Shown: positions 1,914 to 28,630 of the stretch, piece after piece
Position numbering within the stretch: the first letter of the stretch is position 1
How the letters are laid out: each line of letters starts with the position of its first letter
Source of the DNA: a virus
Virus record (IMG/VR): IMGVR_UViG_3300042898_002363
Coordinates: 1 to 33,920 of that record
Direction: 5' to 3' (one strand)
DNA length: 33,920 nt
Translations under genes and position numbers: made by a program
Notes under the pieces: model-generated
Databases searched by the model: none
Told to the model about the DNA's origin: nothing
What the model saw: only the letters and a program-made list of their open reading frames with translations

Positions 1914-1921
1914 TATTTATG
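1914..1921 (-). promoter_or_regulatory. Late-promoter-like element CATAAATA
   Basis: Reading on the minus strand, CATAAATA overlaps the stop codon of the 1917-3548 gene and lies 18 nt before the ATG at 1895, with the Shine-Dalgarno AAGAAGG between. T4 late promoters are TATAAATA and cyanophage variants relax the first bases. The same octamer also occurs inside a gene near 18428-18435, so this single match is weak. Confidence 0.4.
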
Positions 1922-3548
1922 CTAGTGTTACTAAATATTCTAAGTCTATTCTTAAATCACTGGCTCCAGTGCCTGCTGTGACATTCACAGTCAAGTAATC
2001 AGTTGTTGTTAAACTAATATTTGCCGCGGTTACTGTCATTTTATTTGTTCCAGAGCTTATATTATATGTTCCTACAACTGATCCGTTTTTCAACAACTGA
2101 AAAGTGAAAGTACTAGAAGATACAGTACTCAAACTAGCATATACATTACTTATAGTTAAACTGCTAGGCGGGTATAGTCGTGCTGTACCAGTTACTGGTA
2201 CTGTAATAGTACCACTTTGATTCATTGTAATATATTTTTTGACGGTATTAACTCTTGTCTTCCAAGCAGTACCATCCCAAATATACAATGCCTGGGTATC
2301 TTCTGCAAATGAGATATCACCAATTCTGTTATTTACTAATGGTAGATAAGAAGCATCTTCTACAATTGCAATAGTAGGAACTACAACAACGTCATTACCA
2401 GCTACTAACGTAGCAGTACCTGCTACTTCACGAATCTTATTTTTAAAGCTAGGTGTGTTTTCAACATATGTAGCTAAATCTTGTGGTACGAATTTGTCAA
2501 CACTTGCATCATATACAACGCACATCTGATTAACTAGACTTGGAATTGGACGAATCTCAATTGGTGTTTTATGTCCTTCGTGTGTATGTTGAAAATATAT
2601 TACATAGTTTCCATTGATATTTGTTTCAACTGCTAAGTCTTTGATAGTTATAGTTCCACGCATTGACGAATGCACACCGCATTGATAATACAATGTGTCA
2701 GGGGCATTCTGAGGAACAGTAAAGACTAGGGTAGTTTGTCCTACAGAACCGTTATTTCTACTACCAACAACACCCGTGGTGTATTCACCAACATATGTAT
2801 TTGCAACAAAGCCAGTTCCGTTATCCGTAGTTAGATAGAAGGGATGATTTGCTATAGATGAAGCCAGATTGAAAGTATATGTACTACCACGATACAAGGG
2901 ACCTATACCTTTGTTATTACCGTCAGCGTCGCCGCCTATTGTATAAGAACCTGCACTGACAAAACTTACATTGTATGCACCACCTGATGGTTGAACTAAT
3001 GTGGGAGGCGTAACAGTGCTAGGTACTGTAACAGTAGTGCGTTTAACAGTAGTACTTACTCCACCGTTAATGTCAGGATGTGTTACATTAACATTTCCAT
3101 TATCTACAGCCCAATCTACTACATTTTGATTTCCTGCTCCATCGATCCACTTAAATTTTCCACCATGCGTTTGAGTCATGTTACCATATGTTACTGCACC
3201 AGCAAAGTTGTTTACAGTATATACGCCTTGTTGATACATCGGTACACTTACTTGTGGGCTATTAGTGATTGAAGTTCTTGCATAAGGTAATGTGCTAGTT
3301 GCCCAAGTCCAGAACCATGTAGTATCATCACCTGCATCAGGTGCCGCCACTTGTATTGTTAATATTTCAGGTGCAATTGTTAAATTGAAGGGGAAGATGT
3401 TAGCCGCAGAGAAAGTAGAATTACCCAGGTTAATTTGAGCGTTGGCTGCAAGATATATATTTCCATATGTTGCTGTGGGGCTACCTAGCGTAGTGTTTGC
3501 TACTGGGGTAAGAATACCTGCATTTTTTAAACTACTGTAATTTGCCAT
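1917..3548 (-). CDS. Virion protein with a cupredoxin-like domain
   Basis: A 543-residue protein of several parts. Residues 1-50 carry a fibre-like tag (GNIYLAANAQINLGNSTF). Residues 65-170 contain PDAGDDTTWFWTW and a YTVNNF.G.VTYGNMTQTH region. Residues 190-303 resemble a cupredoxin fold: a strand with NHPFYL (His235), then TLVFTVPQ, then YYQCGVHSSMRGTITI giving Cys290, His293 and Met296. These four are the ligand types of type 1 copper proteins. Residues 400-433 hold IGDISFAEDTQALYIWDG, a segment I associate with pelagic phage virion proteins, and the C-terminal 100 residues look like a beta domain. A weak purine-rich Shine-Dalgarno (AAGAAAGA) precedes the ATG. It is likely an appendage or baseplate-associated protein. 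Copper binding is inferred from the motif only. Confidence 0.8.
   Translation of the reverse strand: MANYSSLKNAGILTPVANTTLGSPTATYGNIYLAANAQINLGNSTFSAANIFPFNLTIAPEILTIQVAAPDAGDDTTWFWTWATSTLPYARTSITNSPQVSVPMYQQGVYTVNNFAGAVTYGNMTQTHGGKFKWIDGAGNQNVVDWAVDNGNVNVTHPDINGGVSTTVKRTTVTVPSTVTPPTLVQPSGGAYNVSFVSAGSYTIGGDADGNNKGIGPLYRGSTYTFNLASSIANHPFYLTTDNGTGFVANTYVGEYTTGVVGSRNNGSVGQTTLVFTVPQNAPDTLYYQCGVHSSMRGTITIKDLAVETNINGNYVIYFQHTHEGHKTPIEIRPIPSLVNQMCVVYDASVDKFVPQDLATYVENTPSFKNKIREVAGTATLVAGNDVVVVPTIAIVEDASYLPLVNNRIGDISFAEDTQALYIWDGTAWKTRVNTVKKYITMNQSGTITVPVTGTARLYPPSSLTISNVYASLSTVSSSTFTFQLLKNGSVVGTYNISSGTNKMTVTAANISLTTTDYLTVNVTAGTGASDLRIDLEYLVTLA
2661..2846 (-). other. Cupredoxin-like ligand region (His-Cys-His-Met)
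   Basis: This part of the 543-residue virion protein encodes His235 in NHPFYL, then 55 residues later CGVHSSM with Cys290, His293 and Met296. In plastocyanin-type proteins the order is His, then Cys-x2-His-x4-Met. Here the last spacing is x2, closer to cytochrome oxidase subunit II. The residues could bind copper, or the fold may be kept without metal. Confidence 0.55.
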
Positions 3549-3569
3549 ATATTATTATCTTTCTTATTA

Positions 3570-3577
3570 TATTTAGT
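3570..3577 (-). promoter_or_regulatory. Late-promoter-like element ACTAAATA
   Basis: ACTAAATA on the minus strand in the 61-nt gap between the 3610-6675 and 1917-3548 genes, 21 nt before the ATG at 3548. It resembles the CTAAATA form of late promoter reported for T4-like cyanophages. The gap is one of the longest in the fibre region, which fits a promoter. Confidence 0.45.
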
Positions 3578-3609
3578 CCTAAATACCTAGAATACTCTTT
3601 CTACAAAGA

Positions 3610-6600
3610 TTAAACGTTAGTTAACAACCAACCTTGTGTACTGTTGTAATAAGCTAAAGTAAATGCGGCTCTGTCAGTAGTAACTACCATATCGCTCGCA
3701 TCACCCTGAATCTTACCACCATTTCTAGCTACAGTAATAGCACGTGTGCTTGCATTACCAGTACCATCAATAATAGAAATTTCATCACCTAACGTACCTG
3801 AACTTGGCAATGTCATTGTAATATTAGCAGATGATGTATCTACAATATACTTAGTTGATGCAACCATTGTTGTGTTTGCGCTAACTGCTGAATATGTCCA
3901 GGCTGCGCCGCCTCCGCCGCCTCCACTAGTGCCACCGGTAACAGTTGTAATCTCAACTACTGCTCCTGTAGGAGGTGCTTCACTAAACGTAATAACATTT
4001 GCTAATACAGTGTATGTATTTCTTGGTTGCAATACACCACCAATAGCTACAATTGTGTAATCAGCACTAACAGGTGTAGCAGTTAGAGTTTCCATTGTCC
4101 ATGTACCGTTTCCAGTAAATCTGTCTACTACTAATGTAGTTGATGATAATGCTGTCCAACTTAAGTTACCTGTACCATCTGTTTTCAATACATAATTAGC
4201 ACTACCACCAGAAATTTTAACATTAGCAACTGCACCTAAAGTAGTAACACCAGATACTGTTAAGCTAGTTAGTGTACCTGTACTTGTAATATTTGGTTGA
4301 GCAGCAGTATAAACTGTACCTGCAACTAATGCATTACCAACTTGTCCAGAGACATTAGCACCGGCGACAGCATATGCATTTAATGCATTACCTACGTTAC
4401 CAGTTACATTAGCACCTGCTACTGCATTAGCAGTTGCCGCAAATGCAACTTCACCCGTTACGTTACCACCAGTGATAGATGTTAGTAAACTACCATTACC
4501 AGTAAAGAAATTAGCTGTTGCTAAGTTACCCAAGCTAGCATTAGCGGCTGTTAGATTACCAGTAGAATTCAAGGTACCAGCAACATTAACACCAGTGGTA
4601 GTTATAATAACTACGTTTCCGGTACCACCAACACCCATAGTGATATTGCCATTGGAAGTTGAAATGTCTACATTACTTGTACCATTTGCTACTTTAGTTG
4701 ATGTACCACCGGAAGCAATGATACCTGTTAATAAACTACCGTCACCAATGAAATAATTAGAAGTAACTGCATTACCTAAGTTAGCATCACCTGCTTTAAT
4801 TGCACCTAGTGTAGTTACAGTAACAGAGTTATTAGCTACTGATACGTTACTAGCAAAAGTAAACACCTTATCAGTATTCATCCAACCCATAAATGCGTCT
4901 TTTACACCACCATCATAGTAATGCAATAATTGACCACGTTCTTTACCATCATTACTTGATAATGCGGCACCATTTGCGCCGCCGCCCAATTCAAAGATTG
5001 GATCTACAATTTGTGTTACAGTTGAGTTAACTGTAGTTGTTGTCCCAGTAACAGTCAAGTTACCTGCAATAGTTGTATCACCGGCAGACAATGCACCAGT
5101 CACTGCTAAAGTAGTTAATGTACCGACACTTGTAATATTTGGTTGTGCCGCAGTATAAACTGTACCTGCGACTAATGCATTACCTACTTGACCTGAAACA
5201 TTAGCTCCTGCAACACTGTTAGCGGTAGTTGCAAATGCAACAGCACCCGTTACGTTAGCACCAGCTAATCCAGTTAATGCTTGTCCATTACCAATAATGT
5301 TACCAACTGTTACGTTACCAGTTGTTGTGATATATCCAGAAACATTAACACCGGTTCCTGTTACTGTAACAATACCGGCATTGCCAGCAACACCCATAGT
5401 GATATTACCATTAGCGGTTGAAATGTCTACATTACTTGTACCATTTGCAGTTTTAGTAGAGGTTGCGGCTGAAACACCAGTCAACTGACTACCATTACCG
5501 ATATAGAATGCGGCAGTAATATTGCCTGATGCAGTAAATGCGTTTGCAGAAATAACGTCAGCACCGCTGATGTTACCACTACCACCGGATGCTGTTGTAA
5601 TTGACCCAACAGTTAAAGTACCGGATATATTAGCATTACCTGCAGTTAAATTACCAGTTACAGCTACACTTGTTAGTGTACCAACTGAGGTAATATTTGG
5701 TTGTGCCGCAGTGTAAACTGTTCCCGCGACTAATGCATTAGCTACTTGTCCTGAAACATTGCCACCTGCTACTGCATATGCATTTAATGCATTACCTACG
5801 TTACCAGTTACGTTTGCACCGGCAACACTATTAGCAGTTGCCGCAAATGCAACTTCACCAGAGACATTAGCGCCAGCAACAGCATATGCATTTAATGCAT
5901 TACTTACATTGCCGGTTACATTAGCACCTGCAATTGATGTTAACCCACTACCATTACCAGTAATTACACCAGAACCAGCATTTATATATCCAACAACGTT
6001 GATACCCGTTGTTGTAATTGTTACTACTCCGGCAGTGCCACCAACACCCATTGTAATATTACCACTAGCAGTTGCTATGTCTACGTTACTTGTACCGTTT
6101 GCAGTTTTAGTTGCAGTGCCGCTTGAAGCGACAATGCCAGTTAATCCACTACCATTACCAACAAAATTCGTAGCAGATAGTGTACCTGTTGATACGTTAA
6201 ATGTTAAATTCGCACTTCCTGCTAAATTAGTTCCGTCATTGAACTGAACTTGAGTATTACTACCACCTACGTTCGCATTACCAGTACCAGATGAAGAGGC
6301 TCCCCATGACAAATTACCAGAACCATCAGTCTTTAGTACATAACCGTTAGTACCACCGGTAATTTTAACGTTAGCTACTGCTCCTAAATCACTGTTACCT
6401 GATACAGTTAAGCTAGTTAATGTACCGACACTAGTGATATTGGGCTGTGCCGCAGTATATACAGTGCCTGCAACGATTGCATTAGCTACTTGACCGGTTA
6501 CGTTTGCGCCTGCAATTGAAGACAGACTGCTACCGTTACCACTAAAGTAATTAGCTATCGCTAAATTACCCAAGTTAGCATTACCCGATTCTATATTACC

Positions 6601-6675
6601 GGTAATATTTGCATTAGCAAACGTGAAACGTTCAGCAGTATCAATACTGAACGGTTTAATTTTTAAAATTGCCAT
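3610..6675 (-). CDS. Large modular tail-fibre-like protein (1021 aa)
   Basis: A repeat-built fibre protein starting MAILKIKPFSIDTAERFTF, with AGAGGATGA upstream as ribosome binding site. The shaft has four copies of a 24-residue unit (GTVYTAAQPNITSVGTLTSL type) and several GNGS.LT.IAGANVTG and TKTANGTSNVDI(A/S)T units. Around residues 555-630 is the module with DPIFELGGG, NDGKERGQLLHYY and DAFMGW that recurs in other fibres here. Residues about 848-910 (VDRFTGNG to AVVEITTV) match the C-terminus of the 8001-8981 protein. A GGTSGGGGGGAA linker then joins a final domain of about 95 residues (YIVDTSSANITMTLPSSG, GDEISIIDGTGN, YYNSTQGWLLTNV) of a type I know from other phage fibre proteins. The terminal domain may be a receptor-binding tip; that is inferred. 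Confidence 0.85.
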   Translation of the reverse strand: MAILKIKPFSIDTAERFTFANANITGNIESGNANLGNLAIANYFSGNGSSLSSIAGANVTGQVANAIVAGTVYTAAQPNITSVGTLTSLTVSGNSDLGAVANVKITGGTNGYVLKTDGSGNLSWGASSSGTGNANVGGSNTQVQFNDGTNLAGSANLTFNVSTGTLSATNFVGNGSGLTGIVASSGTATKTANGTSNVDIATASGNITMGVGGTAGVVTITTTGINVVGYINAGSGVITGNGSGLTSIAGANVTGNVSNALNAYAVAGANVSGEVAFAATANSVAGANVTGNVGNALNAYAVAGGNVSGQVANALVAGTVYTAAQPNITSVGTLTSVAVTGNLTAGNANISGTLTVGSITTASGGSGNISGADVISANAFTASGNITAAFYIGNGSQLTGVSAATSTKTANGTSNVDISTANGNITMGVAGNAGIVTVTGTGVNVSGYITTTGNVTVGNIIGNGQALTGLAGANVTGAVAFATTANSVAGANVSGQVGNALVAGTVYTAAQPNITSVGTLTTLAVTGALSAGDTTIAGNLTVTGTTTTVNSTVTQIVDPIFELGGGANGAALSSNDGKERGQLLHYYDGGVKDAFMGWMNTDKVFTFASNVSVANNSVTVTTLGAIKAGDANLGNAVTSNYFIGDGSLLTGIIASGGTSTKVANGTSNVDISTSNGNITMGVGGTGNVVIITTTGVNVAGTLNSTGNLTAANASLGNLATANFFTGNGSLLTSITGGNVTGEVAFAATANAVAGANVTGNVGNALNAYAVAGANVSGQVGNALVAGTVYTAAQPNITSTGTLTSLTVSGVTTLGAVANVKISGGSANYVLKTDGTGNLSWTALSSTTLVVDRFTGNGTWTMETLTATPVSADYTIVAIGGVLQPRNTYTVLANVITFSEAPPTGAVVEITTVTGGTSGGGGGGAAWTYSAVSANTTMVASTKYIVDTSSANITMTLPSSGTLGDEISIIDGTGNASTRAITVARNGGKIQGDASDMVVTTDRAAFTLAYYNSTQGWLLTNV
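4249..6468 (-). repeat. Four dispersed 72-nt shaft repeats (AAQPNITS unit)
   Basis: Copies at about 4249-4320, 5095-5166, 5653-5724 and 6397-6468 encode a 24-residue unit containing AAQPNIT and GTLT. The DNA is also similar between copies (for example plus-strand AATATTTGGTTGTGCCGCAG), most strongly in the second and third. Related units occur once in the 8001-8981 gene, twice in 11586-12875 and five times in 13142-17257, so the set offers many sites for recombination. Confidence 0.75.
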
Positions 6676-6699
6676 GGTGTCATCCTCTTTTTATTATTG

Positions 6700-6707
6700 T
6701 ATTTATC
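6700..6707 (-). promoter_or_regulatory. Late-promoter-like element GATAAATA
   Basis: GATAAATA on the minus strand lies directly after the stop of the 6710-7072 gene and 24 nt before the ATG at 6675, with AGAGGATGA in between. If it is a T4-type late -10 element, the transcript would start about 19 nt before the gene. It is one of only four exact copies I found in the window, all just upstream of genes. Confidence 0.55.
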
Positions 6708-6709
6708 TC

Positions 6710-7072
6710 TTATGGCGATGTAGCTGGCGATGTAACCTCTACCCAATTTAGAGTAGGTTCATCCCAAACATACATTTTACCTTCTTCCACAGGCATAGCT
6801 ACTGGAGCTTCCCATGTGCAAGATGTTTCGTTTAGTGTCCAGCTTGGATAGGGCTGGGGTGCATAGAATGCATCACGTCCCTCATCGTATGTATAGCCGA
6901 TACCTGCGTAATTTTTACGCATTGGTGTTCCACCTAAAAGATGTACACCTCCCTGTGTATTATAGCTGGTTTGTACCCAGCCTGTTCCAAATAACCCACT
7001 ATCGATAACGTCTTGTTCCGCTACGATAACTTGTGTTACTGTCCCGTTTTCTACTTTTGCAAAATGACTCAT
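6710..7072 (-). CDS. Small pelagic-phage virion-associated protein, function unknown
   Basis: A 120-residue protein starting MSHFAKVENGTVTQVIVAEQ with a strong AAAGGAG ribosome binding site. It contains TGWVQTSYNTQGGVHLLGG, then RKNYAGIGYTYDEGRDAFYAPQPYPSW, then a WTLNETSCTWEAPVAMP segment and a tryptophan-rich end (MYVWDEPTLNWVEV). I recognise this pattern as a small conserved protein found in many marine T4-like phages, usually beside tail-fibre genes, with no function assigned that I know of. The protein is full length for that family. Lying between the glycine-rich adhesin gene and a fibre gene, it may be a fibre chaperone or a small tip protein; both are guesses. Confidence 0.8.
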   Translation of the reverse strand: MSHFAKVENGTVTQVIVAEQDVIDSGLFGTGWVQTSYNTQGGVHLLGGTPMRKNYAGIGYTYDEGRDAFYAPQPYPSWTLNETSCTWEAPVAMPVEEGKMYVWDEPTLNWVEVTSPATSP

Positions 7073-7084
7073 GTTTTTACTCCT

Positions 7085-7999
7085 TTAAAATGTAATTGAC
7101 CCTGAGCTGGTCCACTGATAAACTCTATATCCACCTGAAACTGTTATTGTTGGTGATCCTGTTGTGCTGGTTGCGGCTGAATAAGAGTCTGCATAGCGAA
7201 TTATTACTATACCTGATCCGCCAGCACCACCATTAACATTGTATCCGCCACCTGATCCGCCACCACCGCCACCGGTGTTAGTTGTGCCTGATGTTCCCGG
7301 TGTTCCTGGTCCACTACCATATGCAGAACCAGCTCCACCTCCGCCATTGCCTCCTGAACCACCGGTTACCCCGCCCCCACCGCCACCGCCTCCTGCATAG
7401 TATGTTGATGTGCCTGAGATAGAACTAGCCGTACCCGCGCCACCGTTTCCTCCGCCGCTACTACTACCATCATTGCCATAAACTTCGGATCCGCCACCGC
7501 CACCTCCTCCATAATTTGGAGCACTTGATACCGGAGCTCCTGCACCGCCTTGGTTACCTTGTGATGGTGATGTAGATGGGGTATTGCCAGCACCACCGGC
7601 GCCACTATACCAACTACCACCGCCTCCTGAACCACCTTGACCTCCAGATTCGGCATATGCATTTCCAGCACCATATCCTCCACCAGTTGAGGTTATAGAA
7701 CTAAAAATTGAGTCATTTCCTTTGCCACCATTGGCAGATAAACTACCTGGTTGTCCGGGCCCGGCAGTACCACCTGCACCAACGGTGACTGTAATAGGTG
7801 AACCGGATGGTACTGAAAAACTTGGTGCAGTTCTATATCCACCTGCGCCACCACCTGCCCCGCGCTCACTATTACCGGATCCGCCGCCGCCACCTCCACC
7901 GGCAACCACAAGATATTCTACAGTAGGAGTAATTGAAGGGCCAGACCCATTTGTCAATACTATGCCAGGTCCAATATTAATTCCGGGTCCGATATCCAT
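7085..7999 (-). CDS. Glycine-rich adhesin-like tail fibre tip protein
   Basis: A 304-residue protein of which about 240 residues are glycine-rich. It starts MDIGPGINIGPGIVLTNG, then has VEYLVVAGGGGGGG, GAGGYRT and VTVGAGG, then runs of GGGGGGG separated by Ser, Asn, Ala and Tyr. It ends GGSGIVIIRY followed by ITVSGGYRVYQWTSSGSITF. This layout is the common phage 'glycine-rich domain' protein. Runs of this kind form polyglycine-II sandwiches in the gp38 adhesin of phage S16, where the loops between runs bind the receptor. The two genes abut (stop TAA, one base, ATG), suggesting coupled translation with the fibre gene 8001-8981. A distal adhesin role is likely. A link to a particular fibre is inference. 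Confidence 0.8.
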   Translation of the reverse strand: MDIGPGINIGPGIVLTNGSGPSITPTVEYLVVAGGGGGGGSGNSERGAGGGAGGYRTAPSFSVPSGSPITVTVGAGGTAGPGQPGSLSANGGKGNDSIFSSITSTGGGYGAGNAYAESGGQGGSGGGGSWYSGAGGAGNTPSTSPSQGNQGGAGAPVSSAPNYGGGGGGGSEVYGNDGSSSGGGNGGAGTASSISGTSTYYAGGGGGGGGVTGGSGGNGGGGAGSAYGSGPGTPGTSGTTNTGGGGGGSGGGYNVNGGAGGSGIVIIRYADSYSAATSTTGSPTITVSGGYRVYQWTSSGSITF

Positions 8000-27433: not shown

Positions 27434-28630
27434 TTACTTGAATGTCAAGTTAGCAACATCGATTTCGCCTAGATAGTCGGCTGCATTACCGAAAGATGAT
27501 GCAGTGTTTGTCAATTCAACATAACCATAACGAGTCATGAAAGACACGACTGGTTCGAATGTTGATGGATCTAGAACAACGCCAGAAGACATCAATGGGA
27601 TGTATGGGCAATAGAATGCTGCCGCATCAGTCTCTGATGTACCTTTGTAACCAACTAGAACAGCTTGGCTGTCAGATGCATATGTGTTAACGAAAACACG
27701 CATTGCACCGTTCAATGTACCAACGAACTTAGTGTTAGTTGGAGCTTCGAATGTACCTTCTGTTGTACGAGCAAATGCTGATGTAGTTGCAGATTGCAAT
27801 ACAGTCAACACAGCTGGAGATACAACTGCCCAGTTACCAGCGCCACGACGAGTGCGTTGAGCAATCTTGTTAGCAACACGATTGATTAGAACTGCCAATG
27901 CGGCGTGCTCGTCACCAACGAATGTAGCTGTACCAGATACGGCAGCTTGGTCGAATGTTTCTTCCAATGTAGCTAATGTGCTCAATGACAATAGAATCTC
28001 TTGGTCGATCTCAGCAGTAATTTCTTGTGCTAGAGCGGCCATGATTTCTGCTTCAACGTCAATACCATGTTGGCTTTGAGCGTCTTGGGCAGCTTCGAAT
28101 GTCCAGCGAGCTTGTAACTTACGTGACTTAGCTTCAACAGCTTGACGCAAGATTTGTACAGAAATTTGCTTACCGCCATTACCTTCTAGAGCGGCAGTGT
28201 TATTGCCAGTATAGATGTTTGATGAACCAGATGCATTTGTCTGTGTTGAGTAAGCCTGAGCAATTTTGAACGGGCTTAGAGCTTCTTCACCTGCTGTTAC
28301 GCTTGTACCGGCTGGGCTGTTGTCTGTTAAAGACTGAGCATAGCGTACACGTAGAGTGTGAATTTGACCAACTGGGCCAGTCATTGGCTGAACGCCAACC
28401 AACTCATTAGCGATAACGGTTGGCATGACACGACGGATAACTGGAAGAATCACACGGTTTAGTGTAGCGATATTGCCAGATGTAGTTGTGCCAGCTGATG
28501 ACTCAGATAGTAACGATTTTTTTGTGTTTTCTAAGATAACACTCATTGTTGAGCGGCGAGTACCTTTTAGACCTTCAAGTAGGGCTTCTTTGGTCTCGTC
28601 CCAACGGCCTTCTAATAGAACTTGTGACAT
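27434..28630 (-). CDS. 23: Major capsid protein gp23-like
   Basis: Forms the hexameric capsomers of the T4-type head. The 398-residue product has the family hallmarks: NIATLNRVILPVIRRVMP (53-70), GVQPMTGPVGQIHTLRVRY (79-97), IDVEAEIMAALAQEITAEID in the middle and FMTRYGYVEL near the end. TAGGAG lies before the ATG. It is shorter than T4 gp23 (521 aa), as in distant T4 relatives, mainly through loss of peripheral regions. The N-terminal ~43 residues are helical and charged and end in LSE; gp21 proteases cut after (I/L)-x-Glu, so Glu43 is a candidate maturation site. It follows gp21 and gp22 in the usual T4 order and is followed by a strong terminator. No gp24 vertex paralogue follows. Confidence 0.95.
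   Translation of the reverse strand: MSQVLLEGRWDETKEALLEGLKGTRRSTMSVILENTKKSLLSESSAGTTTSGNIATLNRVILPVIRRVMPTVIANELVGVQPMTGPVGQIHTLRVRYAQSLTDNSPAGTSVTAGEEALSPFKIAQAYSTQTNASGSSNIYTGNNTAALEGNGGKQISVQILRQAVEAKSRKLQARWTFEAAQDAQSQHGIDVEAEIMAALAQEITAEIDQEILLSLSTLATLEETFDQAAVSGTATFVGDEHAALAVLINRVANKIAQRTRRGAGNWAVVSPAVLTVLQSATTSAFARTTEGTFEAPTNTKFVGTLNGAMRVFVNTYASDSQAVLVGYKGTSETDAAAFYCPYIPLMSSGVVLDPSTFEPVVSFMTRYGYVELTNTASSFGNAADYLGEIDVANLTFK

Follow-up and report, generated by a model that had tools for sequence, protein, structure and literature searches.

Why would a phage virion protein carry the full ligand set of a type 1 copper site, and is this site likely to be a working one? The question is raised by a 543-aa protein encoded in IMG/VR virus record IMGVR_UViG_3300042898_002363. 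The record has 33,920 bases and comes without a completeness estimate; it was analysed at its full length and is called the window here. A preliminary description had proposed that this protein contains a cupredoxin-like domain with four copper ligands, His235, Cys290, His293 and Met296, and the interval that it gave, 2661-2846, is exactly the span from the codon of His235 to the codon of Met296. The features discussed below are collected in Table 1.

The window encodes a portal, a head protease and a major head protein, the last of which (window 27434-28630) shares 64-68% identity with its counterparts in Escherichia phages 121Q and PBECO4 and Vibrio phage 2.275.O. Because these are jumbo phages, the window, judged by sequence, probably represents part of the genome of a jumbo phage of the T4 superfamily. 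We read the phage as being of freshwater origin. The fibre module of this probable jumbo phage is one that is common to cyanophages. A 304-aa protein encoded at window 7085-7999 gave a strong match to a glycine-rich domain (PF21722, E 1.1e-23).

Table 1. Positions in the window of the 543-aa protein, its domains and the codons of its predicted copper ligands
Feature	Codon	Position	Strand	Basis
Tail-fibre-like virion protein with cupredoxin domain, 543 aa		1917..3548	-	ORF; phrog_677 match; C-terminal structural match
Cupredoxin domain, residues 185-306		2631..2996	-	AlphaFold2 model and PDB matches to type 1 copper proteins
His235, predicted first copper ligand, in NHPFYL	CAT	2844..2846	-	Codon position; invariant in divergent phage copies
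Cys290, predicted second ligand, in YYQC	TGC	2679..2681	-	Codon position; end of seventh predicted strand
His293, predicted third ligand	CAT	2670..2672	-	Codon position; invariance
Met296, predicted axial ligand, loop preceding the last strand	ATG	2661..2663	-	Codon position; invariance
C-terminal jelly-roll-like domain, residues 434-543		1920..2249	-	VIA-align match to a solved tail-fibre domain

Predicted fold of the domain

Residues 183-312 were modelled with AlphaFold2 using 34 sequences. The model had a pLDDT of 85.1 and a pTM of 0.81, and its eight strands are predicted to form the Greek-key beta-sandwich of the cupredoxin superfamily. The strand at model positions 103-108 ends at Cys290 and the strand at 115-121 comes after Met296. 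Type 1 copper proteins made up the great majority of the top Foldseek entries in the PDB, among them rusticyanin, laccases, CueO, Cu nitrite reductase, auracyanin and pseudoazurin; the values were modest (best E 7e-4, TM about 0.45-0.52), and a few Ig-like domains were also listed. Using VIA-align, the domain model matched rusticyanin 2cal (Z 10.5, 106 residues, 2.6 A), the three-domain nitrite reductase 2dv6 (Z 10.5), auracyanin A (Z 8.9) and two-domain laccases (Z 8.5-8.9), and the cupredoxin region was found again when the full-length model was compared. Structure prediction and comparison with cupredoxins, with rusticyanin among the best matches, thus bear out the fold that the preliminary description had proposed.

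Model residues 4-121 were aligned with rusticyanin residues 34-155. If there are no offsetting gaps near the ends, the alignment places Cys108 of the model (Cys290) opposite rusticyanin Cys138, and Met114 (Met296) opposite Met148. We take the rusticyanin ligands to be Cys138, His143 and Met148 (the entry titles also name His143Met and Met148Leu). The predicted strand positions, and the rusticyanin register as read from the range ends, are as would be expected of a type 1 copper site whose four ligands come together at one end of the sandwich.

Sequence comparison also links the phage domain to known copper proteins. The second copy of the domain in P-SSM2_298 passes the Pfam Copper-bind family PF00127 (23.3 bits against a cut-off of 21.2 bits), and two proteins from bacterial MAGs, G008:C2 and G009:C201 (33.5 bits for the latter), match both PF00127 and the phage-domain profile. 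When the phage profile was compared with cellular cupredoxins by hhalign, the probability was 86% (E 4.7e-6) and the Cys, His and Met columns were aligned. The window copy gave no match to PF00127 above the gathering cut-off of 21.2 bits, annotation of the 543-aa protein with Pfam and NCBIfam returned nothing useful, and nothing was found by phmmer with the whole protein against PDB sequences. The plant At5g54830-like family PF25489 was below its cut-off in every match and was discarded.

Spacing of the ligand loop

The window protein has the ligand order of type 1 sites, His ... Cys-x2-4-His-x2-4-Met (or another axial residue), with Cys-x2-His-x2-Met as its loop. Amicyanin, which passes on electrons from methylamine dehydrogenase, has a ligand loop of identical spacing; it was absent among the structural or sequence matches listed. 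The same spacing is seen in CTLHPWM, in the C-terminal stretch of Cu nitrite reductase 9cck, which a profile search matched at E 0.24 only and which served as a hint on loop spacing only, and in the loop CTPHPFM, which PDB entry 2vmj describes as grafted into nitrite reductase. In blue and red cupredoxins, two to four residues separate the Cys from the His, and work cited in the same paper shows that the geometry is dictated by loop length (PMC4059628). From amicyanin, 9cck and this gap range, the loop of the window domain is therefore short but natural, not anomalous. The preliminary description had noted that the spacing differs from plastocyanin; it does (Cys-x2-His-x4-Met in plastocyanin), but among type 1 copper sites it is a natural one.

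Conservation and joint loss of the ligands

The four ligands are among the seven invariant columns in 15 copies of the domain, namely that of the window and 14 from diverse cyanophages with 29-47% identity to it. Homologues were recruited in three ways, none of which required the ligands. Recruitment by window-family motifs that lie in the N-terminal half of the protein (W[FL]W[TS]W[AE]T and VPMY[KQ][QK]G) gave, with the window included, 12 sequences that hold the domain, 11 with the complete set and one with none of the ligands; a thirteenth ends before the domain. When motifs from the N-terminus of gp9 were used, all four ligands were kept in 78/78 complete genes, whose domains are up to 43% different from one another. 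The third recruitment, which overlaps with the first, used the motif AP[DTS]TLYYQ just before the Cys and gave 67 distinct viral domains: 66 complete, one with no ligand and none partial. Two of the 66, scored '-CHM' by the script, were read by eye as complete: L281, where GHPFYI lies outside the scanned interval, and L282, which has GHKIYV. Loci were searched with the closer sets A3, A6 and A7, the last truncated and ligand-free, since the diversity of domain alignment A1 was too great for this purpose.

The codons of the first ligand, the Cys and the second His vary synonymously (TGT/TGC, CAT/CAC), and selection therefore acts on the protein. Relative to a 90% identical protein (L001), 37 of the codon differences in the window domain are synonymous and 15 non-synonymous (122 codons compared), with 105 and 38 in the rest of the protein (421 codons); going by these counts, the gene is under ordinary purifying selection. 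The complete ligand set that had been claimed for the 543-aa protein can thus be read directly from its sequence and is strongly conserved. Free variation of the four residues among homologues, which the preliminary description had named as evidence against a site, is excluded by the counts from the three recruitments.

The exceptions are informative. In L003, a phage homologue with 63% identity, the motifs read NDPLYL ... YYQSATTFARRG, with Asp, Ser, Thr and Arg in place of the four ligands, and the flanking YYQ and RG are retained together with most of the domain. Measured against the columns that are at least 90% conserved in other clusters, all four ligand columns have changed compared to 4/29 of the others (Fisher p = 0.0017); with the seven search-motif columns left out, the comparison is 4/4 to 4/22 (p about 0.005, hand arithmetic). 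Three of the ligands share one seven-residue loop, which may have changed in one event, and His235 lies 55 residues away. A search for close relatives of the L003 domain found its own contig only.

In an unrelated 1049-aa surface-type protein (L296 / L112) of the Verrucomicrobia MAG NHCT01000050.1, the ligands are replaced by D, S, S and E. Two giant virion proteins belong here as well: the 4070-aa one of phage Bellamy has none of the four, and the one of 4601 aa from the L016 contig keeps a Met but neither His nor the Cys. Copies with just one or two of the His and Cys ligands were not seen among the copies examined. In each of these exceptions, at least the two His and the Cys are gone at once. 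We therefore read the four ligands as a unit with one function, retained or lost in its entirety; this would be the signature of a working metal site on a fold able to do without it. Since L003 has lost all of the ligands, at least one close lineage can dispense with the putative site, and a structural need for the metal cannot be strict.

Distribution of the domain

Using tblastn, the domain was found in 318 phage records, nearly all of them Synechococcus or Prochlorococcus phages. The similar motifs that the preliminary description mentioned for marine phage proteins are homologous copies of one domain. In marine T4-like cyanophages the domain is the C-terminus of gp9, as in P-SSM4, S-P4 and ACG-2014b. 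It also occurs in P-SSM2, in a collagen-repeat fibre and in the proximal tail fibre, the latter with two copies, and in a virion protein of S-TIM5 and podovirus proteins of P-SCSP2 and P-GSP1. Many of the viral-contig fibres with the domain match several tail-fibre PHROGs. Genomes can hold several copies, four in P-SSM2 and three in phage Bellamy.

Two bacterial-MAG proteins have the same domain and ligands as the window protein but differ in their partner domains. One, on a Betaproteobacterial contig (L109), looks exported and has VCBS-like repeats, identified by eye; the other, on a Bacteroidetes contig (L298), has collagen-like repeats. Such repeats lie directly upstream of the cupredoxin domain both in L298 and in P-SSM2_028 (L004). 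The domain is a module, found at the C-terminus of gp9, inside many fibres and in some bacterial-MAG proteins. A BFVD search returned the same kind of protein together with 'beta-sandwich' proteins of Pithovirus and Marseillevirus genomes. The latter (A0A481Z6J5, A0A481YVH3 and A0A481Z7Q7) are small proteins with a structural match to the domain.

Tail-fibre and gp9 context of the window protein

Residues 217-305 of the window protein, and no others, match the profile phrog_677, 'baseplate wedge tail fiber protein connector' (E 3e-17), and the match covers profile positions 335-411 of 412, that is, the last 77 positions or C-terminal fifth. The C-terminal domain of cyanophage gp9 that this represents is homologous to the window domain, with about 33-42% identity and the same four ligands. 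Cyanophage gp9 has a T4 gp9/10-like N-terminal domain, seen in a gp9 carrier, and ends at the cupredoxin; unlike it, the window protein has no such N-terminus (no match to PF07880, the gp9/10 N-terminal domain) and continues past the cupredoxin into a fibre-like domain. With the match limited to the C-terminal domain, an assignment of the window protein as a whole gp9 was rejected.

One 724-aa relative of the window protein (L270, positions 2221-4392) starts with a sub-threshold match to PF07880 (23.9 against 25 bits). This gp9/10-like N-terminus suggests that the window family may descend from, or recombine with, gp9-type baseplate proteins. In L003, a single 1018-aa ORF (4543-7599) fuses an upstream repeat-rich stretch with the cupredoxin protein; in the window, a 1021-aa ORF resembling that stretch (3610-6675) and the cupredoxin gene are separate, adjacent genes.

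The full-length model of the window protein was poor overall (pLDDT 61). Residues 434-543, modelled with moderate confidence, matched the tail fibres of Agrobacterium phage 7-7-1 (VIA-align Z 10.1, 106 residues, 2.6 A). Since further jelly-roll folds were also matched, at Z 8.7 or less, we regard the predicted fibre-like identity of these residues as a lead rather than proof. Because of this C-terminal match and the homology to gp9 and fibre proteins, a tail-fibre role for the window protein is likely. The virion-protein context that had been proposed for it is supported by the phrog_677 match, the relatives with tail-fibre PHROGs and the fibre-like C-terminus. A free electron-carrier cupredoxin would be a small, single-domain exported protein; here the domain is internal to a protein of 543 aa, in which no signal-peptide-like start was visible by eye.

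Discussion

The fold match, the complete ligand set and its conservation, the all-or-none loss and the modular spread are the basis on which we propose that residues 185-306 are a cupredoxin with an intact type 1 site, serving as a copper-loaded structural module in a tail-fibre-like protein. We give this reading a probability of roughly 0.55. Judging from the predicted fold and from ligands that are kept as an all-or-none set, virus particles with the domain probably bind copper. That a metal is bound, that the metal is copper, the time of its loading and a structural rather than redox role are the parts of the proposal that we infer.

The apo-domain would fold in the host cytoplasm with the site preformed, and copper would be taken up when the virion meets it outside the reducing cytoplasm, most likely after lysis in water. 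The bound metal would then tie the strand of the first ligand to the loop that joins the final two strands and so stiffen one end of the beta-sandwich. On this proposal, the domain may serve tail fibres and the fibre-connecting baseplate protein gp9 as a rigid module locked by metal, either as a spacer or for docking. The modest Foldseek values, the window copy lying under the Copper-bind threshold and an hhalign probability of 86% rather than near 100% count against it. A structural role alone also leaves unexplained the strict retention of the axial Met, which is variable in some type 1 sites.

The retention of this Met bears directly on a second explanation, that the domain is an active redox or electron-transfer cupredoxin on the surface of the virion, used for example for redox sensing of the host envelope or for an electron exchange with surface proteins of the host that triggers the tail. 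The axial Met is a tuner of redox potential, and the full ligand set that includes it is kept nearly without exception. The nearest folds are also those of electron-transfer proteins. In T4, gp9 joins the long fibres to the baseplate, and if cyanophage gp9 acts in the same way, its cupredoxin would sit at the fibre/baseplate joint, where a switch would be sensible. However, no partner redox domain accompanies the cupredoxin in the carriers examined, and because no partner was found we rank a redox role below a structural one. The spread of the domain over many unrelated fibre and cell-surface proteins also fits a structural module better, and we consider electron transfer unlikely. Rusticyanin and auracyanin illustrate the difference: they share the cupredoxin fold and ligand order with the window domain (Z 10.5 and 8.9), but they carry electrons as free proteins and their ligand loops are longer, whereas the window domain is internal to a tail-fibre-like protein and has a Cys-x2-His-x2-Met loop.

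A site with another metal, or with none, has the same low odds as electron transfer. The His2-Cys-Met sites of cupredoxins can also take Zn(II) or Cu(I), and the site could hold another metal such as Zn(II), or none at all, with the residues kept for packing or by inherited constraint. Zinc leaves the strict conservation of the axial Met unexplained. As to a site with no metal, the all-or-none loss of residues that lie 55 positions apart, with most other conserved columns staying, is not expected from packing alone.

Two further possibilities seem slightly less probable still. In one, the site would serve host contact or the scavenging of metal, and copper on the fibre would draw the virion to copper-binding surface proteins of the host, like the iron 'Trojan horse' idea for phage tails. 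The carriers are aquatic phages, mostly of picocyanobacteria, the domain is on fibres and the fibre connector, and an iron version has been published for phage tail fibres (PMC11705849). In that work, a metal site is likewise proposed on the tail fibre of a marine phage, Alteromonas phage R22Y, but the metal is iron, the motifs are putative HxH motifs, the fibre architecture is another one and the abstract does not mention a cupredoxin. Set against host contact, the domain would on gp9 sit at the base of the fibre, not at its tip, and the chain end of the window protein is the fibre-like C-terminal jelly roll, not the cupredoxin. For such an interaction, we know of no host partner for the domain.

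In the other, which we likewise regard as doubtful, numerous phages among the most abundant in aquatic habitats would have copper on their tails: type 1 copper sites along the fibres and at the gp9 joint of baseplate and long tail fibre would form a lock gated by metal or by redox state. Exit from the reducing cytoplasm, or touching the host, would be sensed by this lock, which would then arm the tail or trigger it. The cupredoxins of gp9 and of the fibres could dock to each other, since the proximal fibre of P-SSM2 has two copies.

A chance match of four residues in a merely cupredoxin-like beta-sandwich is very improbable and was rejected on conservation and structural register: beta-sandwiches are common in fibres and mid-range fold scores can be shared with Ig-like domains, but here type 1 copper proteins lead the structural matches and align with the model in Cys and Met, the ligands are conserved over well over a hundred copies and a homologous copy scores above the Copper-bind cut-off.

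As kinds, the fold and the site proposed here are familiar. What the open-access literature searched did not yield is a complete type 1 site that serves widely as a building block of phage tails, and no paper on cupredoxins in phage tail fibres or cyanophages that treats this domain turned up there. In the cryo-EM paper on P-SCSP1u, the distal fibres are unresolved and copper is mentioned for grids only.

Should the domain indeed bind copper, the tails of cyanophages and related aquatic phages would contain metalloprotein modules, with several encoded per genome (as in P-SSM2). The natural ligand-less homologue, L003, offers a ready-made control. Were the proposal true, copper would be a part of virion assembly or infection, and phages would join the pool of copper ligands in natural water.
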